Shown piece after piece: positions 14,396 to 56,281 of a stretch of 64,000 bases of DNA. The first letter of the stretch is position 1; the number at the start of each line of letters is the position of its first letter. The stretch is from Arctopsyche grandis (lineage: Eukaryota > Arthropoda > Insecta > Trichoptera > Hydropsychidae), in NCBI RefSeq assembly GCF_051622035.1, contig NC_135358.1:622501-686500 (forward strand), written 5' to 3'. The notes beneath the pieces are model-generated. The model made no database searches, had not been told where the DNA came from, and worked only from the letters and a program-made list of their open reading frames with translations. Made by a program: the position numbers and the translations under genes.

Positions 14396-16880
14396 ATAAA
14401 TATATAGATAAATAATCTATTTCCTATTTCGACCCATCTTCCTATTTTGTAAGTTTATTTGAAGTAAAAATAATCTAATATAGATATCATTTTGGTTATG
14501 GATGAAATAACAAACTATGGAAATATTACACAAGTACATAATACAAACACGTATATCTATACAAAACAATTCAATTTGATATTTTTAAAATCAGAATCTG
14601 AATTTAAGTCAGAGTGGTATTCACAATATCTATGTAATGTTCAAAATTTGATTGAATTTATTTGAATATCATCGTATTTTTAGAGTATTTCAGTTGCATA
14701 TTGCAAGACATCGATGTAAACATTTCATTAGGGTTCACGGTAAGGTTCCATAGCCCCTTGAGTCGATGACCAGCAGATGGAGACCACGGAAATAGCAATG
14801 TTTATGCGCGTGCAAATGACACGGAGGGCGTGGGTGGTTCACCGTTGTCGGTGAAAGCTCGTGGAAATGCCGACGTTTCGCAACTGCTAAAGCTCACACA
14901 TCTTCACCAAGGAGACGACGAAATTCCACCTCAATTTACTGCCGTCGGCTAAAGCTCGAGGAAGTCCAGGAAAAATAATTACACCCCAACACAACACAGT
15001 AAAATAATGCACAAGTCATTCGTAATGCAGATTTCATTACATTGGAAGTGTATTGGGTGGTGTTTATTCTATCAATAATGTTCAAGTGCGACGTTATGAT
15101 TTTTTTCGCAATGTTTGTGCAATAATTTTCCTTAAATTGAGATGAGCCGTTGGCAGTTTTATAAATAAAATCGGCCTCGCGTGAAAACAAACAGATTATT
15201 TTAAAACAGCGGTAAAACCAACGTATATCACATACCCTAAGGTCAGGTGAAATCGACCTTTAGCAATGATGATATTTTATATGGAACCGGAGCACTTTGT
15301 CTTCGACCACGAACGATTGCCAAAAATATAGAGATTTTTTTTATTGCAATATAAAATAATACACTTTGGAGCATTTTAAAATAAATGGGAAATGTTGATA
15401 TCATATCATATCAAGTTTATTATTTGTATAATTCGAACAGTTTATTTTTCTTACAATATACCCGTTATTGATTATGCAGTTTTAATGCTAGTAAATTATC
15501 GATAATTGTGATTGTTAGTCAGCTATTGTTGTGTAAAGGTATTCCTAACTCAATTCTGTTCTTCACTCTACCGAGCAACAAGCAATGATCTTTATTATCT
15601 TGTCCTCTATACCCTCTTGGAGATCATTCGAGTACCTCTTCTATCTTATCTTCCAGCCACATTACCATTGAAATCTCCTTACTCGCTCTACTAATATCAG
15701 CTATTCTAATTGTACGTTTTTCGCTACCCTTTTCGTTATACCAAATATTCATATAAACTTTCATTATTCGCGAAGTGTATTATACTTAGTTCAAAATTAT
15801 GGCATTCAGTGGTCTAGTTTTATGTACATGTGTACATAAATACATAATGACTAGTAAAAAGTTTCATTTTAAGTAAAGTCAGTCCTTTTGAGTAGAGCAG
15901 ATGGAGTCTAACTACATACATACATAGATATGTCTGCAAACTGAATATTGAGAGTTCCTAAATACATCCTCAAATACTGCATCAAACAGCTTAGGAAAGA
16001 CAATTTGCCTTATCCCACACCATTTTCAAATTTGAACTTACATATATGGTTTTGTTCAAAGCCCAACCAAAGTTGTAACGTTTTTGTTGGTTCCCGTCAG
16101 CAGTCCCACACAAGGTTCTGGAATTTGCAGTATTCTGACGTAAAATACATATGTTTTATATATAAAATTAAATATGAATGAATGAAAAAGTAGATTATAC
16201 ATGCATACACACACACAAACATATATGTATGTATATTATATATGCATATATATACATACATATGCAGTATTGAAATGAAAAGTAAAATCGTCTGTGCATT
16301 GCACTCAATCTATTTTGAGGGTGAAATATGCAAATGCAACGTTTCTGGTTTGTATCATAAGATTTTCATTGACATTTCCGGTTCATTGATGCGATTCAAT
16401 ATGATACAAAAGTATGTACACGCATGTGTATGTATGAATGTATATTTATGACCCATTTATATATGATTGTATATATTTATGTATTCAAAAATAAAAAAAC
16501 AATTTGAGTTTTGTTGAAAATTTCAATAAAAATAATAGCATTTCAAATACATATATACAAAAAACAATGAAAATACAAAGCACATCTTAACAGCGCGGAA
16601 AATCCCTGTAAAATAAGAGATTAAAAAAAAAAAAATTGGGTATAATATGTATGTACATACATGTGGATTTTACGGATTAAATTAAGTTAATTTTTAACGC
16701 CAGCAGTACAATTAAATATCACAAAAACATTATGATATTACAAAGTTTAATTCACTAATACAAGTTACAATTGAAAATTACATCGTTCTTTCATTAATAA
16801 ATAAGAGTATTCATCAAATATGTTAAATTCTAATACATTTTAGTAATTTTATAGTTCAGTTGTATGTGGGAATGGTTGGC
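14396..16880. other. Gene-free interval 3' of PNLDC1
   Basis: The GC-richer block 14740-14990 contains two degenerate copies of GTCGG(T/C)(G/T)AAAGCTCG. The remainder is AT-rich with TATGTATGTACATACA simple sequence (16200-16260, 16640-16660). The PNLDC1 3' UTR lies at its right edge; a variant poly(A) signal ATTAAA is readable on the minus strand near 16745-16750. Confidence 0.35.
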
Positions 16881-16947
16881 TTATAACTTTTTGAGCTGAT
16901 AAAAAATCAAAGCCATTGTGCTAATACTCGACAAGAAAAATCCACTC
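16881..16947 (-). CDS. PNLDC1: PNLDC1 exon 10 (C-terminal membrane anchor)
   Basis: The acceptor is TTCCATTTTCAG. Residues 528-549 form a hydrophobic segment (SGFFLSSISTMALIFY) followed by QLKKL and a TAA stop, the layout of a tail-anchored outer-mitochondrial-membrane protein. Confidence 0.82.
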
Positions 16948-19900
16948 CTGAAAATGGAAATCTTTGTTGAAATATATTATTTATAAGATATTATATTATA
17001 ATGTAATACTGTAAAACCTACCAAAGTGTCACCCTTAAAATTGGCGAATGTTTGATTGGATTAAAGACCGACACGTCATAATCTTTACTATGCTTGAATT
17101 CTTCAAAAATTTTCCTACAACTGAAAATTAACAAAAAAATATTAAAAAATGTATTTATGTGTAAACTATTTGTACTTAAACTGGAAAATAAGCATCTACG
17201 TGAAAGTTCCAGTGACAGCAATCAGCACGGAGGTTTTTCCGTACTTCCTCACATCGACAGATCCGTATCTCGACAGCATGCTTGCAATCTGTACGTAATA
17301 AACGAATACATCAGTTTTAAAAATCAAAACATTTTCTATTTCAAAATCATGTCATTGTCAAACGTTTGTACTGCCAAGACCATATGTACGGTGTTATATA
17401 ATGCGAAACTACTGGCGTTTTTTTTCACGTGCAAAAAAAGACACTTATAAGCGTAACTAAAATAGCAATCTTGAAATAACCGGGCAGCCTGCACAGATTA
17501 TCATCTGTCTGCTGTATGTACAATTAGTGACTCTTTCATCCAGTATTCGTGAAAGCTTTGGATGCGTGCCAACGTTTTTGAAACAATAAAATATAATAAC
17601 ACCCGGTAACATACAATCCGTAATCGTATTAAGTATTATCGAGCTAAATGGAATTTTCAGCATCTCCATGTGACCTACAGAATATAAGGTAGAGAAAAAA
17701 ATACGGCTGATCTATGGATCTATGTAAATTTTGAATCCTAAAGCAGTGTTAGATTCAGATTAGCTTAGGTGAGGTCAACAGGGAAATCCTTATAAACTGT
17801 TGAATGGTCAAAGGAAGTACATAGTACTAGTCAAAGACTTCTTCTTCTAATTTCAAATCCGTATTCGGACGTAGGCGACTACCATGAGCAGACATCGTTT
17901 ATGGCCCGTGCGAATTCTTCCCTATCATGGGCAAGTCGAAATAACTTTTCGAGACCGAGTCCCATCCATGACCTGATGTTCCGGAGCCAAGAGAGCTTCT
18001 TTCTCCCAAGCCACCGTTTGCCTTCTATGATTGTTTGTAAAAGGCGATATTTGGGGCCGCGAATAATGTGGCCAAAATATTCCATCTTACGGCGCTTCAA
18101 CGTGTCAAGAAGCTCTCTCTTTTTATGAAGAAGCTGGAGGACTGTTGGAGTTGGATGCTTTTTATGAAGAAGCTGGAGGAATCAAAGACTGATAGGGCGA
18201 AAACACAGAGTAGTATAGGACGTCATGTGTCTTTGGCTTCCCGCTGTGCACGTGCAGAATGAATATGTTTGGGAGGTCACACGTGTTTCCATGTACAACC
18301 GAAAAGTTTTTCATAGATTTCTTCAAATATGGGATTCACCGTTATCGATCACTGTCAAGCAATGATAAATACAAGGATAAAATATCATCGAAAACATTCC
18401 AGGGGGTGATTTTTAGGACTGTATACCAGTGGCGGCTCGTGAGAATTAGCAGTGGGAGGACTGCAGAGATGAATCGAGCTGTAGTAGGTCGTTGACCATA
18501 CCGGTGATCAAATGCAAACAAAAATAGCATGCATATGTAACATAGTAGGAGGGCTGCAGGCCCACAGTCCATATAGACGAGCCGCCACTGCTGTATACCA
18601 TGTATATATAATATAACCAGCAGCATGGACTAGTGCATATCTTGCTATGGTCAGTGTGGTTACGAGTTCGAGTCACACTGGTTGTTGCTGGCCAGATCTT
18701 GGTTTGTGACCAGGTTGGTAGAGTTTGCTAATTTTTCTGATTTTCATTGAAACGGTTCCTGCAAAATTGGCTTTCCCTCAATTTCAATTTACATCGTAGT
18801 TTGACAGTTTTTAAAAGTGTCATGGCGATCGCCCGCATTCTACATAAAATTTCAGGGGTGACACCAGAGAAATGTAAAAATGATTTTTAAATAAATGTAA
18901 AAATATCCCTCGGTGGCGCCGGATACTCAATTATATTAATAACCAATTATTTAAGTTTGATTAATATAAACATCGTTAATTTTATATTATACATATGTTT
19001 GTTGAAACTAAATCACACATTAATGTAAGAGTTCCCAAGAACAGATAAATACAAAAAAGTGGATAAAAATAATCCGCCAACTGAGAAAATAAACGGATTG
19101 GCCACCAACGCCCATCACCACCATATACTCAAATTGTAAATAAATCTATATCAAAATGAAACTTTAATTTCGTATTTTGGGCATTTTGCTATTAATACTT
19201 AATTGATGCTAAAATTCGGAATAGATGCTAATAGATGCTAAATTCGTAAAATATGCGAATAGATGCTAAAATCACAAACAAAAGTGAAATTTGCATAAAA
19301 TTTATAAAATTAATAGATTATTTAGAAGGGTCTTCCTATTCCTTTGCCCATTTATTATGTGAAGAAATTGAGGGGATAAAACAGAGCTTGCAGTTTACCA
19401 TAGACGGTGTTTTTCCTGTCAAAACCAAGCAACTGCTTTTGTCTACTATTGTAAACAAAAGAAGACAGTCGGAGCTGTGTATCCAAAAGGTTGCTCAAAA
19501 AAGCGTCTTAAAACTAAACTCGCACTCAAGACTAAATGAGACAAATCTATTCCTCCAAATATTGATTAAACTATTCAATCCATCTGTGGCAGGTACAAAA
19601 TCTAATATTAATATTAAAGAAACAGTTTTGTTTTTTAGAAACCTGCCATTGTTTAATGTATTAACAGAGGCTCAATGTTTGGAAGGATATCGGCACTTTT
19701 TTAGACAATTAATAGAGAATATAAAAAGTGAATCCACGCCGGATATATTGCTACTATTGATGGCAACAAAAATGAAATATGAAGAGTTTGGTTGTGCAGC
19801 TCTAAAATCTATTTGGTGTCCCGTCAATAGTGTGGACGCTGAAAGGTATTTTAGTAAATACAATATAATTGTTACCGATCGTCGCACGAATCTCAAAAAA

Positions 19901-22900
19901 GAATCTGTAGAAATATGCTCCATGTTTTAATAAATTTTAATTGGTATTATATTTTTATATTCATATTTTTTGTCTTTGTATTTTTATATTCATGTTTTTT
20001 TCATTGTAATTTTAATTCCAAAACATTTTTGAATTTTTCTATTATTTTTTAATTGTTGTGCTGTCTTTAAATTGTATATATGTACATGTCTCTAGTGATG
20101 ACCCTGATTATATTCCGTGCGTTGTAAGAAATGAAAAGAAAAGCATTGGTAAAGGCGCTTCTATTATTAAAACATTTTTCTGACTAGGGGGAGTTTTTAG
20201 GGGTTTGAAAATATGATTTGTAAAAGCAGCAGAGGATAACTTCATCCATAGTAAAAATGTCAAAGGATGGAGGAAGTTTTCGAGCTTCTTTCAAAGATTA
20301 ATTTCTATACACAACACATCTGCAATGGTTCAAAATTTAGATTGTCAAGAGATTTAAATGGAATTGCATCCTGAACTTTTTTGAATTGCATGAATCAAAT
20401 CTCTAATTGATAGAAAAATAAGTGTTTTATGTATATTATAATACACTCAAGAAAATTGGCATACTTTGGTAATGAAAAGAAGAAGGTCCATAAGTCGTAA
20501 AATTTCCTAGTCAAAGTACTTAAGACAGTAGTTTGAGAAGAACTACAAATTGTGCACTAAATCACTAACGAATAGATGGCACTATAATTAAACCAGGTTA
20601 TCAGCATTACTCTTCAGCTGTGACTTAATTGAATATGAATATTAAGCCTTTCTTCTTTGTTAATATTTCTGAAGTTGCACGTAATTTGAAGTGTAACGTA
20701 ATTTAAAACCTTTTCATATTAGAATCGGATCAACCCGATTCTATTCCGACATATAATATCAGATTTATGTATATATGAATTAGGTGGGGTGATCCGATTA
20801 TAATAATAAATAATGCAAGGATAGAAACATATCGCACTGCAGATAACTATCTATAAAAATTGACTCCTGGCAACAACGCAAAATTCTGAAGAATTTTTCA
20901 AAATTTAATCTATTTTCAGCTGCACAATATATTCGCGACCATTTTACATTATTCAACGTCAAAGCTTCTCTGGATCATAGCGGCAATACTCACGTGTACA
21001 TATATACATATATATATTATTGGTCTGTACCTCGGGAAGATCCAAAATTTGATTCTTCAGCAACCTCATGTATAAATATGGCGGACGGTGATTTGCAGGA
21101 TCATTTTCATTCAAACACTAAAATTAAAAATATTTATGAACATACAAATATTAATTAATATTGATACACATCTGAGTTATATATGTAATTACTAAATGTG
21201 GCTGCGAGGCTCTGCTCAGATAAACATTATTGCGATGTATTTTCACAGCGTTAAAGTGTTCATTGGTCGTTAATGGACGATTCGATCCTGAATTATCGCT
21301 TCCCAACCAGTGACATATTTTTATGAAACAAAATCCTAAACAAATCGAACGTTTTAATGATTATATTAATATGTATACTATTAATATGATAAAAAAAAGA
21401 TAAAGATCAATTACCGGTACAGTAAGAATCCCATCCAGCTTGATGGAACCACGGTTTAGTATCAAAATCATCTTTCATTTTAATCCTCGGCGAATACATA
21501 CAAACGTATTTCCCCTTTTTTTCGTTGAAAAATGTATAGACACTAAAATTATATTTTATTTCAAAGCAATTTGTGTATACATATTACATATAAATTATAT
21601 ATTTAATAAAGGCCTCTATTTAACCGATCAGTAAAAAAAAGCATTTGGTAGGTACAAATAATGGATTGATCAGTGAATATAATAAATGATCAGTTGCTAT
21701 GCGATCAGTTATTAAATAGAATGATAAGTATTTAAATAATCTGAGCAGTAATTAAACCAAAATGATCAGTATATAAAACGAATTGATAAGATTTTAAAAT
21801 AAATGATCAATTACACTGTTCGACACAAAAAATGGTTCAGACACGACTTTTCTTATAGATCTATACACAGTAAACACGAATCTGGTAATAAAAAATGTTG
21901 ATTGGCTCGAGATTCGGAGATATATGTGTTTTTTAAACCGCACGATTTTTCTATATCTTGATGTTGCTCGGTTGATGTCTCAAAATCTGTCAATTTCCTG
22001 TTCAAAATGAATATTGGAATCTATAGTCGGGTATTTTATATTTCATTTGTAGTACTTTTCAGCTTTCAAATCTCTCTAAGTAGTCGTCCAGTTAAAATCA
22101 AAAGTATGTATTTTCATTTGGGATTTTTTCCCATTGTTAATACTATTTTATATTGAGTATTTTTCTATTGAAAAATGTTTATTGAGATAGTGTTCTGGCC
22201 ACACTATTTTTTGTTTTCGTTTAAAAGGTTTAATTGGAAGTGAGCTGACTTTTAAATCGGTAAAATTTCCAGCTAAAAACTTATACTAGTATTTACTCGT
22301 ATTTAAACGAATCTGAATTGAATTAATAGGGATAATATATTAAATTATCTTTATGTGAGGATTAAATAAAAAAACCCCCTCGCTCCAGGTTAATTTCAGT
22401 CTCACTGTCTAAGTTCTTGCGTGTCTGTTAAATTAATAAATACCGACCCTAACAACCGAATCTTAAATGAATAGGACCAACCCTAACTTAACCTAACCTA
22501 ACCTGACCCTTAAATAAATAAATGTTGGCTGCTTTGATCTAAGATGGGCGACGCGCTATCATCCAACTGTCAAAAATTATAATTGATTTGGTTTTACTTA
22601 TCATTTATATTATTTATCTGATCACTTATTTAATTAATTGCTGATTGAAAAATTGTTATTTACTGATCGAAAAATGAATATTTACTGATCATTTATATTA
22701 TTTAACTGATCACTTATTTAATAAATTACTGATCGTTAATCTTAATTTTTAACTGATCATTTTAGTTCCCTTTAATACATAATAAAGATGTTTTAGGCAT
22801 ACTTTTGTAGCGATGAATTATCAAATACGGAATCCTTTTTTATTAAATGTTTCAATTTCAAGATAATATATTTGCTATCGTATATTTCTGGGAAAAGTTT

Positions 22901-23573
22901 ATGTACTTCCCGTTTGAACGATTTGTAGCTCGCCGGAAGCGGGGCTATGAATTGATTATAAAACATGGCAATGTCTCCAAATGCATTGTGAAACACCAGA
23001 GGCTTTTTATTATCTTCGAGTAGTTTAACGACATGTGAAAAGCCTAATGCGTAATTAAGTACATCGTCGTTGAAAGACGTGTGTTTTGTGGCGGGCTGAG
23101 AGTTCGAATTAATGTTTAAATTCTTCCCAATAATAATCTGCAATCGATTAAAAATAAGATTAACACACAAGTTTAATTGGAAACTATCGATTTGCGGAAA
23201 CATTATCACCTCGCTATTTTCAGTCGTAAAGGTTAGGATTGGAAATGAACTTTTTAATTTATCGATGATGTATAATTGAAGAATAGAATTCTCTTTGATT
23301 CTCAAAGTGTCTTTGTCAGATGCTGACGTCATCCATCTGAAACATTCGACGCGAATTAAAACACTAAATTGTACACATAATATAATAATATATATACAGG
23401 CTGTTCAAATGCATTACGTCACTACTTTATTTTTGATTTCCCAAAACCGTTCGACGTCTTCGTATCGTAAAAAGTTCTCAATCATTCCATTTTTTAATAT
23501 ATGTGTCAATGAGATTTCTTCGTATTTGTTCAAATAAGGAATTCCTTCATAAGCAAACTGAAATTGTAAAATT

Positions 23574-23663
<90 letters not shown>

Positions 23664-25987
23664 GGGTTGGAATTGAACGAAAGGCTGATGTATGTATGTT
23701 ACGACTGATTGTGAGAAGGGGATGAAAAGAGATGTAACGTTTAGTCGCAGTTGGACCTGTGCTCAGCGTGTAGTTTATTAAGCTCCGCTTAATAAACTAC
23801 ATGACTGAAAACGCACGTGTTTGGTCTTCCGTCAGGATTCTCTACCACATATGTACATATTAAAAGTCGACTCAATTCTCTTTGTATAATATAACATTTC
23901 ATACATAAGTGTCATCCAATTTCCGTAACAATTAGGGATTACAATACAAAATTTCACCATCTTTGTAAACTATTTTATCGCGAATTAAGTACATACCTAT
24001 ATACAGGTATATTTATATACATATTATTGCATTATATTATATAAAAAATCGATGCGAACGGAGTATTATGGATTAGGTTGCTTCGAATTCGTTTATTTTT
24101 AGTATTAAATGAGGCAATTTCAAATTGATTAATTCAATGGCAACACAGATATTATAGAAATTTTAATAAAAAGCGATCAGACGGTTGTTAAATTATGATC
24201 CAAATTTTAATATAAATAAAGACGATTGGTTAAAAATAAAAATATATTTATTATTACGAATTTAATTTAATGCATTTATGTGACATTATTCATTTTTAAT
24301 GATTTACGATTCAATTTAAGTTAGCGTTTTTAGGAAAAACAACCACCTACGGTGGTCTAATCCACGATAAACGTTTTTTTTCATTTACTGGTAAATACCG
24401 GTATAATGGTAGTATAAAAAACCATTCACCGTTTACCAGTTTGTGAAATTTGACGATAAATTGCTATCCCTAGTAACAATAATAAAAAATAAAAACAACG
24501 AAAATGTGATCGGTGATTAATTTTTAAAAATATTTTTTATTGAGTTTTGTTATCATGTTTCCGGCCATAGTGACGCTTTAGGGCAGCCTGTAAGCTCATT
24601 GTGGTCTAATTTTAATTTTTTGAAATAAATCCTGGTAAAAATCGATCATCTCGGGGTCACATTTTCTTACTATCATAAAATTTTATGTATTGATACTTCA
24701 TATACATATGTAAATAAAGTAAAAATGAATACAATTGGAATTAAAAAATCCATTTTTAATACTGTAATAATAATAATATGCTATATGAAAGTTTACATAT
24801 GTACTAGCGTTGTTTATAAGTCTGCTTTTCAAACAAAAATAAGTTGTGCCGTATAGAATGGTCGAAGTCACGATTATTCAAAAAATACAAATTGTTAAGG
24901 TTAGGCTCTATTGGGTTGATAATAACATGTGCTGAATTTTACCAAAACATTAAGCAGCAGAATGAAGCTATTCGGGAAGTAAAATCTTCAGCCAAGTACA
25001 AATAAATAAAGGCGAGTGTTGGGAAAAATATATTATTTAATATTGTTATTTTGATAGTTCAAGAGTACTATATGTAGTTTGTGTTGTGTCATTTATGATT
25101 GATATTATAGAAATAAACATTAGAAATATTGAAGTATGCGTTTCTTTAGGTTGTTTCGCGTTTTGCTCTTAGATTTCTTTATCTCACACGACATTGGTAA
25201 AATAATTATCTGGAAATGCTGCTACATACTGCATATTTATAATTATAATTATATGCATATTTATAGATTTTTTTCACAGATCATGCTCTTGGTGCTATAA
25301 AATTAACATTTTACGAACTACATACTACATATTTAATTTCAAAAATATCCCATTACTTATAGGTAGCTCAAAAACGTATTGCTGGAAAGCGGAAGTTTAT
25401 TTATGAATACATTTTATAACACGTTTCAGAATATTTTAAGATAGCACTGCATAATAACTTATAAATATATATGTATGTACATACCTTGTTGAAGTCAAAG
25501 TTATGTTTCTCTAAGAAAGTTAAAACAGAGGCTTCGAAAGTACACGTTTGATTTATACTGCCAATAAATTGCGGACATAGATGAAAGGTATACGTAGCAG
25601 ATGCGTAAGTGTTCAAATCTCTATCAAAATGAAATATCGATAGTCCGATTTGTGTGGCGATGATTCCTTGAGTACCTTTTCTATGTTTATTGTATCTTTC
25701 CTCTACCGAATCAAATAAACTGAAATAAATACATACGACTTTTATGTATATATATATATAAACATATGTTTAAAAGTACATCAAATACATATATAAAAAT
25801 AAATTTGGATTGGGTTACAAGTTCTATTTACTTTTTATAGAAATATGTTGTTGACTAACCTATTAGAGCAATCGTCTCTCGTGCGAAGTCCTGATAGTTC
25901 AATATCGAGAGATATAAATTTACATGTGGGGATTTCTTTGCGTAAATTTTCCAAAACTGATGGAAAATTATATTTTGTGACCTCCAT
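16881..25987 (-). CDS. PNLDC1: PNLDC1 (Trimmer-type) 3'-5' exoribonuclease, 10 exons
   Basis: PARN-family DEDDh exonuclease; PNLDC1 trims the 3' ends of pre-piRNAs on the mitochondrial surface. Exons on the minus strand: 25987-25860, 25719-25485, 23557-23418, 23336-22803, 21542-21415, 21335-21193, 21117-21031, 17288-17200, 17120-17022, 16947-16881. All introns are GT-AG and all phases join, giving 549 aa. Catalytic residues are D28 and E30 (SLDIELSGL), D289 (HNAFGDIAMFY), H379 and D384 (HQAGWD). IYDSKY (318-324) and FNK..YEGIPYL (119-129) are further family motifs. Residues about 170-240 fit the R3H-like insert. The C-terminus (526-544) is hydrophobic and ends QLKKL, a tail anchor as in PNLDC1; PARN instead has an RRM. 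The start follows a clean 5' leader and matches the family MEVT...F start. Introns 2, 4 and 7 carry transposons. Naming rests on motif recognition; an alignment would settle PNLDC1 versus PARN. Confidence 0.88.
17022..17120 (-). CDS. PNLDC1: PNLDC1 exon 9
   Basis: The acceptor is GTTAATTTTCAG. Residues 495-527 (KIFEEFKHSKDYDVS...KHSPILRVTL) match the 'ILKEY...HSP' segment that precedes the PNLDC1 membrane anchor. The donor GTAGGT is in phase 2. Confidence 0.82.
17200..17288 (-). CDS. PNLDC1: PNLDC1 exon 8
   Basis: The acceptor is TTACGTACAG. Residues 466-494 read LSRYGSVDVRKYGKTSVLIA, matching the 'FG.VDVR...K' region after the nuclease domain. The phase fits exon 7 exactly. Confidence 0.82.
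17840..18135 (-). mobile_element. Non-LTR retrotransposon C-terminal fragment
   Basis: A minus-strand frame (18100-17879) reads KRRKMEYFGHIIRG, RLLQTIIEGK and GRKKLSWLRNIR. This is the C-terminal signature of endonuclease-reverse transcriptase proteins common in arthropod LINEs. Truncated copy in PNLDC1 intron 7. Confidence 0.75.
18427..18590. mobile_element. hAT-type MITE, 164 bp, intact ends
   Basis: Perfect 14-bp inverted ends, CAGTGGCGGCTCGT and its complement, are flanked by identical 8-bp duplications CTGTATAC (18419-18426 and 18591-18598). Sub-terminal GGAGG(A/G)CTGCAG appears twice. There is no coding capacity. The intact duplication implies a young insertion, within PNLDC1 intron 7. 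Confidence 0.9.
18618..18790 (+). mobile_element. tRNA-derived SINE, 3' truncated
   Basis: The head CAGCAGCATGGACTAGTG and GAGTTCGAGTC (B box) are followed by the family body TTTCATTGAAACGGTTCC. The copy stops soon after and lacks the usual tail. Confidence 0.7.
19253..19930 (+). pseudogene. hAT transposase C-terminal remnant, 225 aa frame
   Basis: A 225-residue open frame ends with CPVNSVDAERYFSKYN...TDRRTNLKKESVE, the C-terminal dimerisation region of hAT transposases. It lacks the zinc finger and the catalytic N-terminal part, and the frame starts inside short tandem copies of GATGCTAAA(T/A)TC (19205-19275). No clear terminal repeats were found around it. It lies in PNLDC1 intron 7 on the opposite strand to the gene, so it is a relic rather than an exon. 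Confidence 0.75.
19931..21030. other. PNLDC1 intron 7, remaining part
   Basis: AT-rich sequence with no recognised repeat or exon. A minus-strand frame at 20850-20970 was considered as a terminal exon and dropped, because the exon at 17200-17288 fits phase and family. Confidence 0.4.
21031..21117 (-). CDS. PNLDC1: PNLDC1 exon 7
   Basis: The acceptor is AATTTTAG. Residues 437-465 (CLNENDP...RPPYLYMRLL) correspond to the GPD..RPP region of PNLDC1. The donor GTACAG is weak, and a 3.7 kb transposon-bearing intron follows. Confidence 0.8.
21193..21335 (-). CDS. PNLDC1: PNLDC1 exon 6
   Basis: The acceptor is TTGTTTAG. Residues 389-436 continue the nuclease fold (FCFIKICHW...VYLSRASQPHL). The donor GTAATT is in phase 0. 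Confidence 0.85.
21415..21542 (-). CDS. PNLDC1: PNLDC1 exon 5
   Basis: The acceptor is AATTTTAG. Residues 346-388 contain WFHQAGWDSYCTG, the DEDDh His and last Asp. The donor GTAATT is in phase 1. Confidence 0.87.
21814..22372. repeat. Repeat A, uninterrupted copy
   Basis: Begins CACTGTTCGACACAAAAAAT. Its body is the reverse complement of 4802-5722 without the LTR. The 29440-29705 copy ends in the matching CGTGTCGAACAGTG, so the terminal motif is reproducible. Located in PNLDC1 intron 4. Confidence 0.65.
22437..22530. repeat. Single arm of the fold-back family
   Basis: AATGAATAGGACCAACCCTAA, three AACCT units and CCCTTAAATAAATA match one arm of 9285-9515. No opposing arm is nearby. Confidence 0.6.
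22803..23336 (-). CDS. PNLDC1: PNLDC1 exon 4 (R3H-like insert and catalytic Asp)
   Basis: Residues 168-345, the largest exon. It carries the R3H-like insert, HNAFGDIAMFY with D289, and the FPEIYDSKYI motif. It ends CAAAA|GTATGC in phase 2; a stop four bases beyond the donor shows that splicing is required. Confidence 0.88.
23418..23557 (-). CDS. PNLDC1: PNLDC1 exon 3
   Basis: The acceptor is TACAATTTCAG. Residues 122-167 begin FAYEGIPYLN, completing the FNK-YEGIPYL motif across the splice. The donor GTAATG is in phase 2. Confidence 0.85.
23577..23656. repeat. (AT)n microsatellite, about 40 units
   Basis: Uninterrupted alternating AT of about 80 bases in PNLDC1 intron 2, ending at TACATG. 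Confidence 0.95.
23660..23850. mobile_element. Possible solo LTR with a perfect hairpin
   Basis: The segment runs TGTAGGG...CTACCACA with an internal AATAAA. It contains a perfect 14-bp stem (23769-23782 with 23788-23801, loop CTCCG). No target duplication was found, so the LTR reading is tentative. Confidence 0.35.
23851..25484. other. PNLDC1 intron 2, remaining part
   Basis: AT-rich. 24360-24470 has ACCGGTA-rich inverted motifs ending TTGCTATCCCTA, hAT-terminus-like. 24565-24630 matches the 'GCCATAGTGACG..TTAGGGCAGCCTG' LINE 3' UTR motif also found at 31525 and 11490. No exon was recognised. Confidence 0.4.
25485..25719 (-). CDS. PNLDC1: PNLDC1 exon 2
   Basis: The acceptor is TTTATTTCAG. 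Residues 43-121 include SLFDSVEERY and QIGLSIFHFD, both family landmarks, and FLEKHNFDFNK at the end. The donor GTATGT is in phase 0. Confidence 0.88.
25860..25987 (-). CDS. PNLDC1: PNLDC1 exon 1
   Basis: Starts at ATG 25987 in an AAAATGG context and encodes residues 1-42 with the first catalytic pair, D28 and E30. It ends AG|GTTAGT in phase 2. Confidence 0.88.
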
Positions 25988-26160: not shown

Positions 26161-27560
26161 ATTGGTGGTAATTTGATTATTAGTCACATTGCGATCGCCT
26201 AAAAGACAATTTTTGCCATGAAAATCACGAATACGGAATATTTAGCACTCGAGCTCTTGTTAGTGATAGTTATCGTTAGTATTTTATTTTATTTTATTAA
26301 TTGAAAAATCAACAGACAGGATGTACATAGATATGTATAAAAAAAACAAATAGTAAATAAATAATATATGTAACATCCGAGTCCAATAATAGATTTTTAC
26401 AAAAATGAAAAAGATAAATATAAGGAAAACAAATTAAAAAGGGAAGAATAAAGGCATGACAAAATATGTAGAACATTGCATAATTAAACTATAGTATTAA
26501 AATATTTGGAAAAGGTTATAAAATAGATTATAAGAAGAAATTGAAATTTACAAATATAAAACAAATGAAAAAGGTAAATACAAAATAAACAAATGAAAAG
26601 GAAAAGAATGAAAGCTATAATATGATTAAATAGCACATTACATAACTAAACTAAAGTATAAAAATATTGGAAATATTGGAAAAATAGAATAGGAGAAGAA
26701 ATGAATCAATCGGTCAAGATTCTCTTGATGTTAGACCTGAATTGATGTAGGGAAATACCAAATAGATCAACCTCATTCAGCTCTCCGTTAAACATACGAT
26801 AAACGCGCTGCAGATAAAAATATTTTTGGGAATTAGTATTGAAAGGATCAAGTGAAAAGAGTGCAACGCGTCTAGAGTACCGAAATGGGATTCTGAAATT
26901 AACCTTATTCAGTAAATCAGAACAATCAAGGAAACCATTTATGAGCTTAAAGAAGAATATAGCATCAGTATGTCGTCGCCTGACAGAAAGATTGTCAAAA
27001 GAAAGGATTTTTAAAATGTCGGAAACAGTAGAATGGGTATAGGTAGGAAAAAGGTAGCGTAAGGATTTAATAAATTTAAGTTGAACTTTCTCAATACAAT
27101 TAATATGGGATAAATAAAAAGGTGACCAGATAATTGAGGCAAATTCAAGGTGAGACCTTACAAAGGAAAAATAAAGTAATTTTAGTACATAAGGATCATT
27201 AAAGGGTTTTGTTGAGCGGAGTAGGAATCCAAGAGATTTAAATGCTTTGTTGGTAATAAAAGAAATATGTTCAGAGAAATCTAGTTTATTATTGAGTATT
27301 ACACCAAGATCCTTAATAGAAGATGACGTGTTAAGGATTGAATGATTTAATTGATATTGATTAGTAATAATTGATTTATTTCTAGTGAAATTTAAAATAG
27401 AGCATTTTTCTAGATTAATAAAAAGATCATTAAGTATGAGGGACTTTTCGACTGCCAGATGTTCCGTTATAGAGATTTTTGTGACTTATGGGCGAGCGCT
27501 TTTTGACCAATAATCACCGAACCATTTTGGACACCGTTAGTCTTATCAAGTTGAAATTTA
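26161..27560. mobile_element. MITE B split by a LINE insertion
   Basis: The left part (26161-26279) and right part (27442-27560) together match the uninterrupted relatives at 37433-37620 and 57293-57510. Imperfect terminal inverted repeats read GATTATTRGTCACA then GCG(C/A)TCGCC(C/T)AAAAG. The interior includes CGAATACGGAA and CTGCCAGATGTT. The break point holds the LINE at 26280-27441. Confidence 0.65.
26280..27441 (-). mobile_element. jockey/CR1-like LINE, RT C-terminal part, decayed
   Basis: On the minus strand, successive frames read KDLGVILNNKLDFSEHIS, SHLEFASIIWSPFYLSHI, SLRYLFPTYTHSTVSDILKI and LFSLDPFNTNSQKYFYLQRV, followed by a 3' UTR and an A-rich tail at the plus-strand left edge (26280-26300). 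These are the post-catalytic segments of a non-LTR reverse transcriptase. The YADD core is missing and stops break the frame. Confidence 0.75.
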
Positions 27561-37000: not shown

Positions 37001-40000
37001 GAGGAGCGTTTATGTCGGATGACACAAAAGGTATTCTGTCATTTAACAGTTGAGCTACAACGCAAATTGGCTATGAAGATGCACAGCACAGTCTGTAAAA
37101 ACAAACAAAAAGTAATGCAAAAACGGAAAAAATGACAGAACGTGATCCGTTATTGCGACTCACAAGAAAGCGGAAAGTACGGTCAATGTTGGAGAAAAAC
37201 GGTGAAAATTTTCGTCGTTATGTCAACGTGAAAAACAATGAATGTGAAGGTATGTGATTACGTGAATTTAAAAAGGGGATTATGTCGTGCTATGTGTGCT
37301 TACGAAACTCCAATCTATTAAATAAAACTGTATTTATAATCATTTAACGCCACATGCTATGTTGGTCGTACGGTTTTTACTGCTTTTTTTAATATTATAT
37401 TTTCGATAATGTTGAAATAAATATATGTATTTATGGTTCGGTGATTATTGGTCACAAAGCGCTCGCCCAAAAGTCACTAAAATCTTTATAACGGAACATC
37501 TGGCAGCTGAATTCTATCGATAACTATTATACTAACTCGAGTGCCAAATATTCCGTATTCGCGATTTTTATGGCTAAAATTGTCTTTTGGGCGATCCAAT
37601 TACCGTATTTAAAGTGTAAATTTAATTTTATATAATAATGACGGCTGTTTGATCAATTAGAATGTATGAAAATTTAATTCAAATGCCAAAATTATAATAA
37701 TAATGTTACAAATTTTTTAACTCGTATTAATTCATTACTTTTTTATTCTGCTTATTTACATTTTTAAGAATTTTTTTTCAGTTCAAATGAATATATCGTC
37801 ATCTTTGCCATTTGTCTGCAACATACATATAAAATCACGCGTGCCATAATGTGGCATGCTTCTTTCATTCAATTAATTTTGAATTGCAGAGTTTTCAAAA
37901 ATTGCAGAGTAAAAAATAGAAATATATTTTTTTGGAAGAAAATTGCATACTTTTAAAAACATTTTTCAACTATTTACTATTTTTCTACTATTACTATTTA
38001 TGAAAGTTATCTACACACATACAACGTATAATATTTTCATATTATGCATTTTGAACTCGGCAACAAGTTCGTGGAAAGTAAATGTTTTTATAATTTAAAT
38101 GATAAATTGATGAATCTCTTTAGATTGTAAAGAGAAGATTGAGAGGTGATTAAATTTATAAAAATGTTCAAAGTCATTATAAATGTCAAATTAAAAACCA
38201 TTTAATGGTTGAAATGAAATCTCTCGTCTAAGAGGTACTACTTTTTACCTAGAGAAAAAAAATATAGGTACATACATATGTATGTATGTACTTACAGTTA
38301 GAAATAATGTTTATTTTCAAATGCAGTATACCTACACTTTAACAAGTTTGGATTATTCTATTTAACTGAATGCTTATTAAATGAATTAGATTTATACCTC
38401 AAAATTTTATTCATGTACATAGATACTCACATTTAATACTTATTTATTAATTACAATTTAGCCATAGTGACATTATAAAGTATGTAGTTCCAAGTCGTAA
38501 CTATATGTTAAACATAAAACGAAAATAAAATAAAACATAATAAGAACAAAATTAGCATACATCAAAAACTAATAATACAATAATAGAACACGTTTCAATC
38601 TCAAATTAAACAGTACCAAAACTAGATCAGCATATTTTTGATTAAAAATATCTCTTCATGAACTTACCTTTCAATAAACCGGATGATCAATGGAAAGGAA
38701 AACTGGCTAGATTTAAGCGAAAAAACTTCATTTATCCAATTTAACATCAATTCAATCAAACTTTCACTTCAATTCGATTACAATCGACTGAAACAACTTC
38801 TATTCAAATCGCATACACATTTGATTTTAAAATTTAATAAAGCCTTAATGCATATTTTTTCATACATTCAATTCAGACGTCAACGCGGATCCATGTCTAA
38901 GGTTGGCACAATTTTAACATGTTGACATACAATTGTTGTTCACTTTCACAACGTCGAAAATAAAAATGTTGATGGCTTGCAAAAATTACATAATTTTAAT
39001 GCGGTCGCATCTGGCTTGTAAATTCATTCTATAATTAATACAAAATGAAATTTAAAGTTACGCAATATAATTAAAGATTAAAATTTCATGGGACGAGGAA
39101 AATTCAAATTAAATTAGTGACTTTACTTGACATTAGAAATTATTTGAGTGTGTGAAGTCAAGTGATTTCATGACGGTCGACTCTCTTTTGTAGATATTCT
39201 CTTCTTACTCGAAAAAGAAAACATGTTTATTTATTTAAAATTATATTTGAATACACACACCTATATAATATGTTTATACAGTCAAGAACGGAACATGCTC
39301 TCTGGCATTATCCGTATATGGCGAAAGAGTGCCATACTCTTGACTGGTGAAAGTTGCATATCTTTTGTCAGTTTTAAGAATCAACATCGTTTCTTTTATC
39401 TGAATTTTTTTTAATGGGTTTTGTTTCTTTCTTTACAGAGGAATACTTTGAGAGTTGCGACAGACCTTGCCACGAATTGGATTGGCCGATGATTTGCAGG
39501 GTGAAACTCACTTTGGAAGTTTATAAATCACTCAGCAGGTATGTTTATTGGTTTCTTCATACCCTAATTCAAATTGTACTTTAGTGAACCGTTACAAATT
39601 CTTTCACAGATCTTGCAAAGAATGTCCGGGAAATTCATCCGATTGTGAGAAAAACCACTGCGTGAGCGCTGATGGGCATTCGAGAGGAATCTTGGCAGCA
39701 AATCGCCAACTACCAGGACCCAGCATCCAAGTGTGCGAAAACGACATCATGGTCATTGACGTGGTTAACCGGGTACCAGGTCAAGGTTTGACCCTACACT
39801 GGAGAGGACAGCCCCAAATCGAAACCCCTTTCATGGACGGAGTACCAATGGTGACACAATGCCCAATCCCGAGCTATACAACATTCCAGTACAAGTTTAG
39901 AGCTTCAGCACCTGGAACCCATTTGTATCATGCTCATTCGGGAGCAGAATCTTCAGATGGACTGTTCGGTGCTTTTATAGTGAGGCAGCCTGAAAAGATC

Positions 40001-43000
40001 GAACCTCATATAAAGTTGTACGACTTTGACAAGAACGAACATGTTATGGTTATATCTGAGTGGAGTCATGGATTTGCTATACAGAGCATTTTGGATACAA
40101 TCCCTCTATCGGTCGAGTCTCTTTTAGTGAACGGCAAAGGGGTGCATAAGGATACCAAAGTGTCTGAAAACGAAGGGAAAGTTCCTTTGAGTGGTTTTTC
40201 TGTGTCGCCTGGGAAGAGGTACAGGTTTAGAGTGGCTCATGCTGGTGGTGTTAAGGGCTGTCCTGTGACTTTGACAGTCGAGGATCATGTGTTGCAGCTG
40301 ATTGCTCTAGATGGACATCCTGTAGTGCCGAAAGATGTGAACTCTTTGATTTTGGGTCGCGGAGAAAGGGCCGATTTCGTTCTGAACGCGGACAAGGAAG
40401 TTCGATCTTATTGGATAAAAGTTTCCAGCGTGGAGAATTGCGTTTCTCCGATTTATAGCGCTGCCGTGTTGAAGTATGAAAGTGACGATAGTAATAACGG
40501 AAAGACGGAGATGGAGAACGATAAAAGTGACGTTGATGATTCGATGCATCATGAAAACGAATTGAATACAGTGACCGGAGACAAATGCGTTGACGAGAAG
40601 ACATTGTGTGTCAGTGAAGTGCAATCTTTGAATAAGATGCCTGTGGAGTTGACCGCAGAGAAGATGCAAACTACTATATATCTGCCGTTCAAGCATAAAA
40701 AGCAAGATTTTCATCCTAATGCAGGTATGTGCAACTTATAATATATTGTGTCACTTGTAGTCGCGTCACTATGAACGCAGATTGAATTTAGTCGCGTTGC
40801 TTCATGTTGCGTCAGCGTGCGACAAACCTAGGGTTTCCAAAAAATTTTATATAAAAATAATTGAAAATATAATACATGAAGGAAAGATTATTGAACGGCG
40901 AGTGTGTGGTTAGCGAACGTGCATGGTATGAAGCGTGTATGGGTTATTTGCCATGAGGCTTGCCTGACGTTAAGACGTATAAATAAACACTATCTAAGCT
41001 ACTACATGTGCATTATTTGGAACATCCAGAATCCTACATATGTACATATATTATGTAGGAGAAATAAATAAGCTTTGAACGAAATCCTTATAAATTATTG
41101 TTTATTCAAGGGTCCCAACAGTTTCGACCAGTAGGTTGTATCAAAAATTGTGCCCATAATTCCGAAAATGGTTTGAAGTCAAGAAAATTTTATTTAATCA
41201 ATTACATATTTCAATATAACCGATATTAAACAATAAATTTTAAATTTTTTTCCTGACTTAGACCACTCAAAAAAATGGACACACTTGTTCGAAGGTCGGT
41301 GAGCCACAACCTAATGAAATAATAAAATAAATAAATAAATTTCCAAATATAATAATTTATTTATTAATAGTTTTGGACCATTGTGGCATTACAGGAAGAA
41401 CCTAATGCGCCACAATGGCCTACATTTAAAAAAGATAATACAAGTAAAAAAAACAGAAAAATTAGAAAGCAGAATAAAAAAATAATAAAAAGTAACAAAA
41501 GGAAAATAATAATACAAATAAAATAGTACATAAAATGTACAAAGGAGAAAGAAAAAGTAAAATAAATCAACAAAATATGAAAAATAAAATCACAGCGAGG
41601 CCCAAATGGAAGAGAGTAGATTAAGATTCCACTCATTCATCACATTCAAATTAAGAAAGTAATGATGAGCGCAGGTTACCAAGTTACCAAGGTGGAAAAT
41701 ATCACATTCAGGGACGGCAGCAACGATTTCATTGAGAAGTTGAATAGCTCTTGGAATAGGAGCCATTCGAAAAAGAACTGTGCGAGCAGCAGGTACAACT
41801 ATCAAATGATGATGTCTACCACGCACATAATTATTAGGGACATAAAGTCCCAACTGTTCCAGCAACAACGGGCATGACGTATTACCACGCAATAGCTGGA
41901 GAACGAAACGAATTAACGAGAAGTTTCTCCGAAGTTCAAGGGAATTATACCCAAGCATGCCCAAAAGGAAAGGAGTAGGATAGAGATATGGGTAGTACCC
42001 ATACTCTTTCTTATAAAGAAAACGAAGAAATGCTTTTTGCACTTTTTCGATAATGTAATCGGATATTTAATATGTACATATGTATGTATGTTATATAGTT
42101 TTTATGAATTTATCATATAATGTTTTGTTTTTAAAAATATACTAGTGGCCTGTTGTAATATGTGCATTTATTCTGCTTTTGCGAGATTCTGGACATATCG
42201 AATTAAAATAAGTGATAACAACTTGTGAATTGAGTCAAATAGAAATAGTGTTTTTGAAACTGAAAATTGGAATTCCGCCACTTTCAAATATAGTGGCTCA
42301 TATCTTTAATTTCTAGCTAAGCAGTTTATCTGGGTGAAGTTAATAAAATAAAAGGCTTGTAAAAATTTAAAGGGCCACGAGGCGAATTTAAAGTAACCAT
42401 GGTATATGTTGTATCTTTCGTGGCAAGAAAGTTTTACTTTTCATTTAAATCACCCCTCGTGTCTTTGCGTCTTAAGCAAAATGTACCTTTGCTGTGGCCT
42501 TGTTTAAGTAATTGAAACTACTCTCAATAATATTTTATTATGACCTGGTCCTCGCCAGTTACTAAATCTCAAAGCAAGTGCTAAGTGCTGGCCCTTTTTT
42601 GTGTTGTTCAAAGAAATATAAGCCTATTTCCTAACCTAAGTCCAAATATGTTAATTTTTTTCGTTCTTTCATATAAATTTGAAATTCATTATTGTTAGCT
42701 TTGAGAAAAATAATAAATGCAAAAAATCCGGTTTTCTGCTTCAATTAAAATAGGAATTAAAGTCAATAACGGAGAATGTATTCTTACTGTATGTATATGA
42801 AAAATATTTACTTTTACAATAAATTGATTAAAAATGTCGTGCTTAAATTTTATAAATATATTTGGATACGATGAGTATTTAACTCCCTTTAAACGAATGC
42901 ACACGTATTATATAATTTCCATGTAAAGGCATTGAAAAGTGTGCTCCAAGACGATGTGAATGACCGTATAATAATTCCGAAATCAAAATGGCGATTTTGA

Positions 43001-46000
43001 CAGTTGTCGAAGGCCACGCGCTAAAGCAACAAAATCGGATTTCATGCTATCAATTGGCAACATTTATATTTAGCAAAATATGCATAGGTATAAAAAAATG
43101 AAACGGATACATATTTGTATATAATTAATTATAGGCACAATACTTTCATTTTGATGATTTGACAGCTGACGATCAATCATCGAAAAATCGAATGCATGCT
43201 ATGGATGCTCAATCAATCGTTCAACGTGCTTTTAAAATGATCGATAGCGTTCGCTTTTTTATACGACGTTTAGTATTTCAATCATATTTTGCAAAATGTA
43301 CACACACTTGCGATTATCATTAGAGGTGTATTGAGCTTTCAGATTTTAATTGAGTGCGATTCTTTTATTATGGAATTACATGCATACAATACCTTGAGGA
43401 ATATACCTACGTAAATATGTGTAATAGCAATTATTCGTAATATGAGTTATGATCAATTAGATCAGCGGTTCCCAACCTTTTTTGTGTCGCGTACCCCTTG
43501 GTAGTACATAACGGTAAATTGTACCACCATATATAAATGATTGTATTTCATGAAATTTGTTTTTGCAAGTGTAATTATTATATATATAGTATTTGCATGG
43601 TAACGCAGGATAGACGCAATATGTAGATCTGTTTTGGTAAGAAATTTTGTAGAAAAAAAGTTATTGTGGACAATTATAATATGCTCAAAGTTTAATATAT
43701 TTATTTATATATAATTCTATTATTGATAAATGGTTTTAATAAAAAGACAAAATTACAAATACATATAATATATTTCTTTTCATAAATCTCATTACAAAAT
43801 AAATTTATAGAGATCATTGTACTTGCTTCGAGGAACATATATTTTTAAATATTGGTTAAAATGATGCGAGATGTACCCTTAAGTCTGGAGCTGCATTCAA
43901 TCTATTTCTATATTTGTCTTATTAAAATATATGAAGAGAAAGCTCTCTCAACCAGTTCAGTGCTAGTAAACGGCGACAGAAATTTAAGCACTGTCAGAAA
44001 GCTGTTCATAACCTAGCCAAAAATTAATAACCTTATTTATTTCGAATTCAGTTTTTAAATGCTATAATTTGAAAGTTCAATCAAGTTCTCCTTTTCCTTG
44101 GTAGCTGTCCAAAAATTTTCACTATCAAAGCCGTTTGAATTCCAATTGTTTGCTTCTTAAGGTTTGGGGAAGCACTGTGTAAAAGACGATTTCAGTCCTA
44201 TTAAATGTTCAGTTATTTTTTCACGTATATCCCGAGACATAATATTCTTGTTTTAAAATAAGAAATTATGTAAAGTACCTCAAATACCTCAGTTTTTTCA
44301 GTCGATCTCAGTCGATCATTTTTGATACATAGATTCCAACAATCTAATTTTCTAATCATACTTTCAATTTTATCTGCAACACAAAAGATTATTATCGAGC
44401 TGTTCTCGATAATAATAAGTGTCAAATTCAAGTTATTTATTTATTGGAGCGATAACGCGGTAAATTTAAAAATGCACTCCAAAATCCATGCCGGATCTGA
44501 CGAAAACGTATCGATTGCCAGATTTTCGATCATCGACTGTACATATTGACGTTGACGATGACTAATTAAGATAATGTTTATTAATTATATAAAACATATT
44601 TCTTTAACATACCTCCTTTACGTTTCACTTACGATTACAATTCAGGAAAAAATTTGCCTCTTATCCGATCGTTTTCATACTTTGGAATATTGCTCATTTT
44701 GGTCATCAATATAAGTAAATGGATCCTCCGCCATTACGATCGAGCAAAAATATCGTGTAAGACGCGTTTGAAATTTCTGAAAAGTGCCTGACGTTTATCC
44801 AGTTTTTAGTTTTAAACATACATATATGGCGATAGTAAAATAAAATTATTGGTATTTTTATTAAAAATAATTATGATTGTAAATCATATATTCCTGCATG
44901 TCCGCCATTACTGATTTTTTTTCGCGTACCACATGTTGGAAACCGCTGATTAATAATTTACTAATAATTATTTTAAATTCAAACAAATCTATTCATACAG
45001 AGGTAGCATTCAATTTTATTGACAACGGGATTTCAATGAAAAATCCCTCCCTATTTTAGTCACGAAAATAAAAACAATATATTGTGAAAATTTTGACAGG
45101 ATTTTTAATAGGAATTTTGTTCATATTTATACTATGAACTTAAATACATTCCAATACATACAATATTTATATATCGTTAATCAACTGGTTCGAAATTAAC
45201 TACTCAGTAGTATCTATGCTCGAATCTGCTTATAAAATGTAGCATTAAAAGCTATTGTAAAAGACTTATCGCAAGTGGAGATTGTGCGAGAATTGTGTCA
45301 AACTTTACGGTTGTAATAAATATAAACGATGGGGTATGTAATGGACAAAAAGGTCGTATCCATGTCTGATTGTAAATGTCAACTTTCACTCATTCCATTC
45401 GTAATGAGCTGGTACCTACTCTTAGTGTATATTATTATTTATTGTTTGGTTGACATAATACAAAGTGAACCTTTTCAAATTAAGCCCACGTGTGTACGTT
45501 TATATGTACGTTTCAAACTAACAATGGAAAGTCATTTGTATTGGAATTGTCTTTTAGAAACGTGAATTGAAAATTTATTAGTATTGTATGGGATGATATG
45601 TGAAAAATGATTTGTTTGAATTTTAATATCGAAAGATGTAATATGTACATGCATTTTTTCATTGAAGCATGATTCGCGAACTTTCATCTGAAAGTTCATC
45701 TTTGTCAATAATTGAAATAATGATCGATAGATGTTGTAAAAAAGGTACAAGATAAAAAAAACGAGGAACTAGATCGAACTTTCCAATCACGTTTCCTAAA
45801 AATATAATTGACTAAAATGTATTTAATTTTTTTTTAAATAAATTGTGATAGTACGTACATATGTACATAGATGATATATAATATAGAAGTAACTATTAAA
45901 ATGAAACCTTTTTTGTTTTGAATAAAATAACTATTATGCTATATATTTCGCAGGATATATTGATGTTCAAGTTAATATTTATAAATTTTATTATTCCTTA

Positions 46001-47612
46001 TATATGGTGTATGGTCTACCTATAAAATAGATTTGTTTTGATTATGTTATTAATGTACTTTAAAGATTAATTTTTTTGATGTTGTTTATTATTCGAAAAA
46101 ATCTTTTGGTAAATTAATAAAAAATACAGCAATTTGTATACAATTTAAAGCGAAAAAAGCTTATCGAAAAATCATGCTCTTAAGTTCTTTTTTTTCTACC
46201 GGAGTTGGAAGTTTACTCTTGTACACAATTTCAGTAATAACAGGCTTTTACGTCATTAGACTAATTTAGTAATTTTCTAAACGTGCATAACACCTCTGTG
46301 CAATTGTATTATTTATAATTTGATTTCATACGGCTCTCATCTTTAAATTTTATTTTGAACAATGACGAGTAAATTACTCTTGAATTCTTAGTCATTTGCT
46401 AAGCTAACAACCGAATATTAACTTTCCATTTCTGAACTCACTATTGGGATGTGTTGTTTTTTTTAAGCACAGGTAATTCAACTCGATTATTGGTATCCAT
46501 ACCTGGGCAGAAAAACCCGTCAGTGAAATCAAAAGTTGATATGCAAAACGCAAAGTTGATTATGCAGTTCAAGTTTAATATTTTAAGAGATCGATTTGCT
46601 TGATAATAAAAAATATTTTTTTATACACGTAAGCAACGTTCACTTTTAACATTTTTTCGATAACGTTTTATTGTAATCAATATAGCGATATACTTTTTAT
46701 ATTTTTATTAGAATGAGAAAATCGCGAACGAATGCTAAATTTCACTTTTTTTTGTTACGCTACGTTGGTTAGAATATTACTTTTTCCGTTTTAAAATAAT
46801 AAAAATATTTTAATAATATGAATAAAATTTAATCATAAATAAATTTTCCATTAAAAAATCATCTGCAGTTATACATTAAATTGAAAATAATTTCTACTTT
46901 GTACAAATTTTGCGTCGTAGATATAAAATGTTAATTTGTAAATTTATAAATAAACTACCTGTATTACCCGGCTTCGCTCGGTATTTCTAATATAATCCGT
47001 TTAAACATGACTAATCTAATAGTAAACGTTTTATTAAATTTATTTGAATAATTTTATCTTATATAAATTTATTTGAATACTCATTTTTTTTTATTTAATT
47101 GTTTGTCACGATCAAACAAACATATAGTAAGTTTCTTATAAAAATTATATGTACGCTCCCGGCGTCTGCGCCCCCTAGGGCTCCGCCCTCAGCGTCTGCG
47201 CCCCCGACGTTTGCGTCCCCTAGGGCTTCGTCCTCGGCACCTACGCCCCCGGGAACTTCAAATCCTTTGAATTAGAAAAAAGTGAATTATTTTTTCGATG
47301 ACGTCACGGATTTCTACGAACGAAGGATACATACATACATACATACATATATACAAAGTCTCTTTCCAAATTATATATTAGATTATTCATAAAATATAAT
47401 CAATTGTTTTTTTTCCCGAAGGTTCAGCTGAGATGGACGGGGTAACTTTCACCTTCCCACCTTCACCCTTGCTAACACAACCCCTGGACAAAAACCATGG
47501 TACTCTGTGTGTTCGTGCAGCCTGTCAAAAATCTGTCAGATGCGAGTGTGTACACGTCAGATCTATACCTTTGGGAAACACTGTCGAACTGATTCTGGTA
47601 GATCAAGGTATG

Positions 47613-47698
<86 letters not shown>

Positions 47699-55300: not shown

Positions 55301-55822
55301 TATGTATGAATTTAAATTTTTTGATCAAAATATTTCAATTAAATATTATTGAGACATCTATGTATAATATTATGAAAATAAACTAATGAGGGGTTTGCAT
55401 ACTGGTCTAAATACAAAAGTCGAGTAAAAATATTGGAATTTGTAATAATACTTTTTATTAATATTTATTACTTTTTCCAATAAATATTTAATTTCAAAAT
55501 CTAAATTTGACTCCAAATCGTTATTTGATCATAATTATTGAGTTTTTTTTATTTTTTTGAAAAATTAATGTACATTTATATTTTCAAGGATGTAGCACAA
55601 TTGTGTAAATATATATTTATCAACAACAGATATGTACTATTTTGTAATTTTGTATTTGGTTTATAAATAAGAAATGTAGACGAAACAATTTTAGAATCTT
55701 TGCTCTTAGCCAGGACGGTAGTCGTACACACACAATAGTCATTCTGGCGTCTCTTTCCTGTTCGCGAACAAGAGTGAAACAGAACTACTCGCACATCGTC
55801 AATTCACACGAGAGCAAGCGAG
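55301..55822. promoter_or_regulatory. Upstream region of the MADF-BESS gene
   Basis: AT-rich to 55690, then a GC-richer block (55690-55822) just upstream of the start that is the likely 5' UTR and proximal promoter. No TATA box was recognised. Confidence 0.35.
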
Positions 55823-55915
55823 ATGACAATACATATATCAGATACGCGAAACTGTCTGTTGGGTATAGCGTATGGATTTTCTGTCTGTCTGTTGCTCGTG
55901 GACGTTTGCCCTGCG

Positions 55916-56281
55916 ATGGCCTCTTCCGAACCTGTGAACCTGGATTTGACCTACGAGGAGACAATGAGGGTCATCAATGCTTTCAAGAAGCAAGGCGTGC
56001 TCTGGAATCCTCACCTCTTTGGCTTCCACAACAGACAAGTTAAAGAAGAAGCCTGGAGACTGGTCTCGGCCGAAGCAAATATCGAGATCGACACGTGCAG
56101 GAGGAAGCTCAAATCACTGACGTCATCCTGCAGGCGGGAAAAAGCAAGGATCATCAATAGCAGACGCTCCGGCAATCCAGAAGATGTGAGAGAACCCAGA
56201 TGGAGGTACTGGAATGCGTTCAAATTCTTACGCGGACTGGAAGATAACGATGAAGATCCGCTGGGCACTGCTCCAGAAATG
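55916..56281 (+). CDS. MADF-BESS gene exon 1
   Basis: Encodes the MADF domain and ends GAAATG|GTAAGT in phase 0. The coding region could start at 55823. Confidence 0.82.

Follow-up and report, generated by a model that had tools for sequence, protein, structure and literature searches.

The gene at this locus raises the question of whether its host, Arctopsyche grandis, encodes PNLDC1, the enzyme that trims piRNA precursors in silkworm, or another member of the PARN family. We analyzed a window of 64,000 nucleotides (contig C4, 622501-686500) from a 475.7-Mb genome in 189 contigs, in which a gene on the minus strand, running from 25987 to 16881, very probably encodes the host PNLDC1: judging from its sequence, it would be an orthologue of silkworm Trimmer, that is, a membrane-anchored, trimming DEDDh exonuclease. 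The original prediction set this gene against a background in which Drosophila lacks the enzyme whereas Bombyx uses it, and the literature upholds that background. Excerpts of PMC13269885 describe Drosophila as being without PNLDC1, while excerpts of PMC11449332 state that silkworm trimming depends on it and that trimming by mouse PNLDC1 requires both the nuclease residues and TDRKH, consistent with silkworm. According to the excerpted text of PMC8421150, PNLDC1 is not conserved in Aedes aegypti, and Nibbler trims a subset of the piRNAs of that mosquito. Since the enzyme is missing in Drosophila and Aedes aegypti and present in silkworm, its occurrence in a non-dipteran insect would be unsurprising.

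Gene structure and the fourth intron

Eleven exons join into 1578 nt encoding a protein of 525 amino acids with no stop or frameshift, and all introns (10/10) are GT-AG, which confirms the coordinates, strand and intactness that had been predicted. The start codon (25987-25985) lies in a good context (AAAATGG), and a stop is found in frame 30 nt upstream, at 26017, with no ATG between the two. Exon 1 (25860-25987; aa 1-43; all features of the gene are on the minus strand) contributes the start codon and residues D28 and E30, and exon 2 (25485-25719; aa 43-121) lies inside the match to the CAF1 ribonuclease family. Exons 3 (23418-23557; aa 122-168) and 4 (23210-23336; aa 168-210) are followed by a 72-nt intron that stays in frame (intron 4, 23138-23209); beyond it, exon 5 (22803-23137; aa 211-322) carries the catalytic residue D265, and exon 6 (21415-21542; aa 322-365) carries H355 and D360. 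Exons 7 (21193-21335; aa 365-412) and 8 (21031-21117; aa 413-441) lead to intron 8 (17289-21030), which is 3742 nt long and holds a transposon-like fragment, recognized by a weak hAT dimerisation match, below cut-off, within an open reading frame on the plus strand (19250-19927). The gene is completed by exons 9 (17200-17288; aa 442-471), 10 (17022-17120; aa 471-504) and 11 (16881-16947; aa 504-525 and the stop), the last of which encodes most of a hydrophobic segment at aa 501-519. Downstream of the stop, the 800 nt searched contain a possible poly(A) signal, recognized by motif only (ATTAAA, 16746-16751, minus strand). Scans of the 64-kb window for tRNAs and Rfam families yielded no matches.

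When the 525-aa protein was searched against its own genome, 11 matches were obtained, ten at its own locus (exons 1-10; the short exon 11 gave no separate match) and one on contig C13. PNLDC1 is apparently single-copy in the host genome, a status short of proof because the search scores only the best candidates.

The gene had originally been modelled with ten exons and 549 amino acids, which corresponds to the 11-exon, 525-aa model with intron 4 retained as 24 codons; reading through this stretch (23209-23138) is natural, as it contains no stop. We rejected the longer model. Intron 4 is most likely spliced out, given its size and A+T content, a gap-free alignment, an intron in the host PARN and the position of a human splice variant. 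Specifically, its 72 nt fit the five other short introns of the gene (74-81 nt), and its A+T content (0.69) is higher than that of the pooled exons (0.645). Against splicing out, this A+T content is the lowest among the six short introns (0.72-0.84 in the others), and two exons also reach 0.69. With intron 4 removed, the alignment to a provisional human PNLDC1 sequence is gap-free across the exon 4/5 junction, and an intron of the host PARN lies about 4 nt away from where intron 4 aligns. The splice variant of human PNLDC1, c.607-2A>T, is reported in the excerpted review PMC12497819; it implies a phase-0 intron, whose position coincides exactly with the aligned point of intron 4 if the 520-aa numbering applies and is 11 residues off if the 531-aa numbering does. 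Pfam CAF1 does not discriminate between the two models (255.9 vs 255.0 bits). All five of the catalytic residues first reported are present in the 525-aa protein; D28 and E30 keep their numbers, while D289, H379 and D384 had to be renumbered as D265, H355 and D360.

Nuclease family and relation to PARN

The 525-aa protein matches the CAF1 ribonuclease family of the PARN type (Pfam PF04857) with an E value of 7.6e-76 over aa 3-368, and with this strength and span the match is not due to chance. In a search of solved structures, mouse PARN (3d45) was matched across aa 1-487 (E 1.6e-33), and the DEDDh residues D28, E30, D265, H355 and D360 align with it. Pfam returned no R3H or RRM match in the 525-aa protein at E values up to 1, and its match to PF01612 is weak and below cut-off. 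The 19-residue segment of highest hydropathy (aa 501-519) is near the C-terminus and has a marginal mean Kyte-Doolittle value of 1.62, the usual cut-off for membrane segments being about 1.6. The corresponding maxima of host and mouse PARN (1.33 and 1.36, respectively) are internal, and the portions of the two proteins that were examined show no terminal hydrophobic segment. The tail anchor that had been claimed is therefore borne out as a hydrophobic segment at the C-terminus, and the membrane anchor typical of PNLDC1 is predicted from hydropathy, near the cut-off.

The gene on C13, assembled without its first exon to 562 aa, is 39.4% identical to mouse PARN (BLASTP, 348 bits). It combines a CAF1 domain with RNA_bind, the RRM of PARN (PF08675, E 2.2e-22), which has no counterpart in the 525-aa protein; its R3H match is weak (E 0.0021, below cut-off), so that the lack of an R3H match in the 525-aa protein makes a weak comparison. 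By these features, the gene on C13 is the host's PARN and is distinct from the gene in the window. Even with the provisional human sequence set aside, the domains, the tail and the PARN on C13 would already mark the window gene as the other PARN-family gene, one with a tail.

Our sole PNLDC1 reference was a provisional human sequence, written out independently of any database record, which was used because the solved structures gave no PNLDC1 match (seven sequences at E up to 1, two of them PARN), and all comparisons with it should be read as leads. It agrees with published variants at both residues available from the excerpts of PMC11316121 (2/2). Among eight amino-acid rows of the excerpted review table in PMC12497819, three agree in the 531-aa numbering, one more agrees in the 520-aa numbering and four disagree; by our reading, rows 84 and 259 of that table conflict with their own nucleotide change. 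The provisional human protein resembles the 525-aa protein in being a CAF1-type DEDDh nuclease of similar length (531 aa) with D28 and E30 at identical numbers, no RRM or R3H match, a hydrophobic C-terminal segment and a similar C-terminus, including an HSP motif. It differs in the hydropathy of its tail (2.32 vs 1.62) and in sequence, with 26.0% identity over 442 columns. By BLASTP, the 525-aa protein scored 164 bits with provisional human PNLDC1, 129 with mouse PARN and 94.7 with host PARN. With 161-165 bits and 29.6% identity over the same 442 columns, mouse PARN is no more distant from the provisional PNLDC1 than the 525-aa protein is; similarity alone thus does not pair the latter two, and for their pairing we rely on the tree and the domains.

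We built a tree of four sequences (the 525-aa protein, provisional human PNLDC1, mouse PARN and host PARN) from 442 gap-free columns, and it placed the 525-aa protein with provisional PNLDC1 and the two PARNs together (AU p values of 0.0025 and 0.0009 for the alternatives). The observed likelihood gap of 20.6 log units was reached in none of 120 simulations run under the two alternatives (60 + 60); the favoured tree came out best in 11 and 17 of these, respectively, with a gap never above 4.5 log units. Exons 9-11 scored 51 against the C-terminus of provisional human PNLDC1, compared with 23.8 for shuffled sequences (s.d. 4.2, z 6.5), a score that 0/2000 shuffles reached. They do not resemble host PARN, with 1378/2000 shuffles reaching the observed score. 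As far as sequence can tell, the similarity to the provisional PNLDC1 C-terminus speaks for the original joining of the last three exons, then numbered 8-10, to exon 7.

These results bear on the possibility that the window gene is a duplicate of PARN, a general deadenylase, and not PNLDC1, which we consider extremely unlikely. The two share a nuclease family and catalytic residues, the match to mouse PARN spans nearly the whole length, and the sites at which the 525-aa protein agrees with a single partner lean slightly to mouse PARN (25 sites, compared with 20 for provisional PNLDC1 and 19 for host PARN). However, the informative quartet sites favour grouping with provisional PNLDC1 (20 vs 6 vs 6), the C-terminus is unlike that of host PARN, and C13 carries a full host PARN whose RRM is missing from the 525-aa protein; we rejected a PARN identity. 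The claim of PNLDC1 over PARN holds on account of this separate PARN, the hydrophobic tail and a C-terminus like that of provisional PNLDC1. With PNLDC1 as the preferred identity, it is still conceivable, and in our view very unlikely, that the gene is non-functional or that splicing over the 3.7-kb intron fails to connect exons 9-11 to the rest, leaving a tailless protein. Such an outcome would fit the length of intron 8, its transposon-like fragment and the A+T content of exon 9, the lowest of any exon (0.52 vs 0.61-0.69 in the others), but not the 1578 nt free of stops and frameshifts, the splice sites that are all GT-AG, the intact catalytic residues or the similarity that exons 9-11 still have to the provisional PNLDC1 C-terminus. 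The gene is intact and essentially rightly named PNLDC1.

Probable piRNA 3' trimming in the host

A functional PNLDC1 could also be present with Nibbler acting as the main piRNA 3' trimmer in this host. The genome contains a Nibbler/mut-7 homologue on C4 (best solved match 7jw3, E 1.2e-45), and Aedes aegypti, with its Nibbler-trimmed piRNA subset and no conserved PNLDC1, offers a precedent in the excerpts of PMC8421150, which place Nibbler in the DEDDy class. Nibbler is a 3'-5' exonuclease that trims small RNAs, as is predicted for the 525-aa protein; it differs in that the host homologue matches PF01612 above cut-off and is a separate gene. We consider Nibbler unlikely to be the main trimmer, as PNLDC1 has been kept with intact catalytic residues and is essential for silkworm trimming (PMC11449332, in excerpt). 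PNLDC1 may nevertheless not be the sole trimmer in the host, since a Nibbler-like exonuclease is present as well.

Other genes of the piRNA pathway were found in the same genome. Fifteen Argonaute-family matches are distributed over five contigs (C31, C8, C4, C3 and C5). The gene on C4 is nearest to silkworm Siwi (E 4.7e-90), and a fragment on C3 belongs to the PIWI clade; Piwi-like 1 and 2 are nearer to it than Siwi is, as expected of Ago3, a label that we apply to it as putative. Zucchini-like genes are located on C7, C2 and C1. One copy on C7 was compared with solved structures and matched the mitochondrial cardiolipin hydrolase 4gel (E 1.9e-35), which we take to be Drosophila Zucchini; the remaining copies were assigned by their similarity to this one.

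From what is seen, namely the family, the catalytic residues, the open frame, the separate PARN, the missing PARN RNA-binding domains, the hydrophobic C-terminus and the PIWI and Zucchini genes, we infer that PNLDC1 would be expressed, spliced as modelled and inserted into a membrane. The 525-aa protein would most likely act as a membrane-anchored DEDDh 3'-5' exonuclease, probably at the mitochondrial surface with Papi/TDRKH as its partner. There it would trim PIWI-bound pre-piRNAs from their 3' ends, a step that would precede 2'-O-methylation. piRNA trimming by PNLDC1 in this host can fairly be inferred.

This gene adds one clean, intact insect PNLDC1 to the record and leaves established views unchanged, the enzyme being known in silkworm, mouse and human (PMC11449332, in excerpt). 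We found no survey of PNLDC1 across insect orders in a limited literature search, and a genome in which PARN, PNLDC1 and a Nibbler homologue occur side by side is useful for comparing how piRNA 3' ends are finished among insects.

The Zucchini copies are odder than the PNLDC1 gene itself. They appear to be intronless and include a tandem array of four copies on C7, two of which lack the catalytic lysine. It is possible, though we regard it as improbable, that the piRNA 3'-end machinery of this host is in turnover, with PNLDC1 and Nibbler kept and Zucchini multiplied, and that the two copies without the lysine are non-cutting modulators of piRNA biogenesis. Finally, we counted TTAGG repeats, which were lost in Diptera and whose presence suggests that the host is not a fly, and obtained 46,861 overlapping matches across the genome (27414 forward and 19447 reverse), compared with 0 for the reversed control.

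Zucchini/MitoPLD-like genes of the host

Zucchini/MitoPLD-like genes were found on three contigs of the host genome (G000). Four apparently intronless copies (L037, L039, L040 and L041) lie in tandem on C7 (30942397-30981522); their proteins share 88-99% identity, and the DNA flanking the copies is likewise duplicated. In two of these four (L039 and L041), the HHKF motif, which carries a catalytic lysine, reads HHTF, and in L041 the serine of GSLNWT is additionally replaced by leucine. A further apparently intronless single copy is located on C2 (15254318; L038), and one that is apparently split by introns on C1 (8164555-8167285; L042).

A divergent argonaute and repeated frames

A single open frame on C31 (13171-14037; L010) codes for an 813-aa divergent argonaute, possibly a retrocopy, or else derived from a contaminant or parasite. 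On C54, two copies with identical open frames (7136 and 72250; L028 and L029), spaced ~65 kb apart, resemble a 3'-5' exonuclease-containing DNA polymerase and a helicase, and by eye appear phage- or plasmid-like.

Other genes and transposon remains in the window

By Pfam domains, pieces of a laccase-like multicopper oxidase span 39527-50186 (+), with Cu-oxidase_3 and Cu-oxidase at 39527-40738 (+) and Cu-oxidase_2 at 49800-50186 (+); a MADF DNA-binding domain protein follows at 55778-56377 (+; E 1.1e-14). A frame at 26709-27485 (-), judged retroelement-like by eye and without a match in a Pfam search, terminates ~0.7 kb upstream of the PNLDC1 start codon. Besides this frame, transposon remnants comprise a weak, below-cut-off hAT dimerisation match within PNLDC1 intron 8 (19250-19927, +; E 0.0093) and a reverse transcriptase fragment at 63234-63998 (-; E 3.5e-10).
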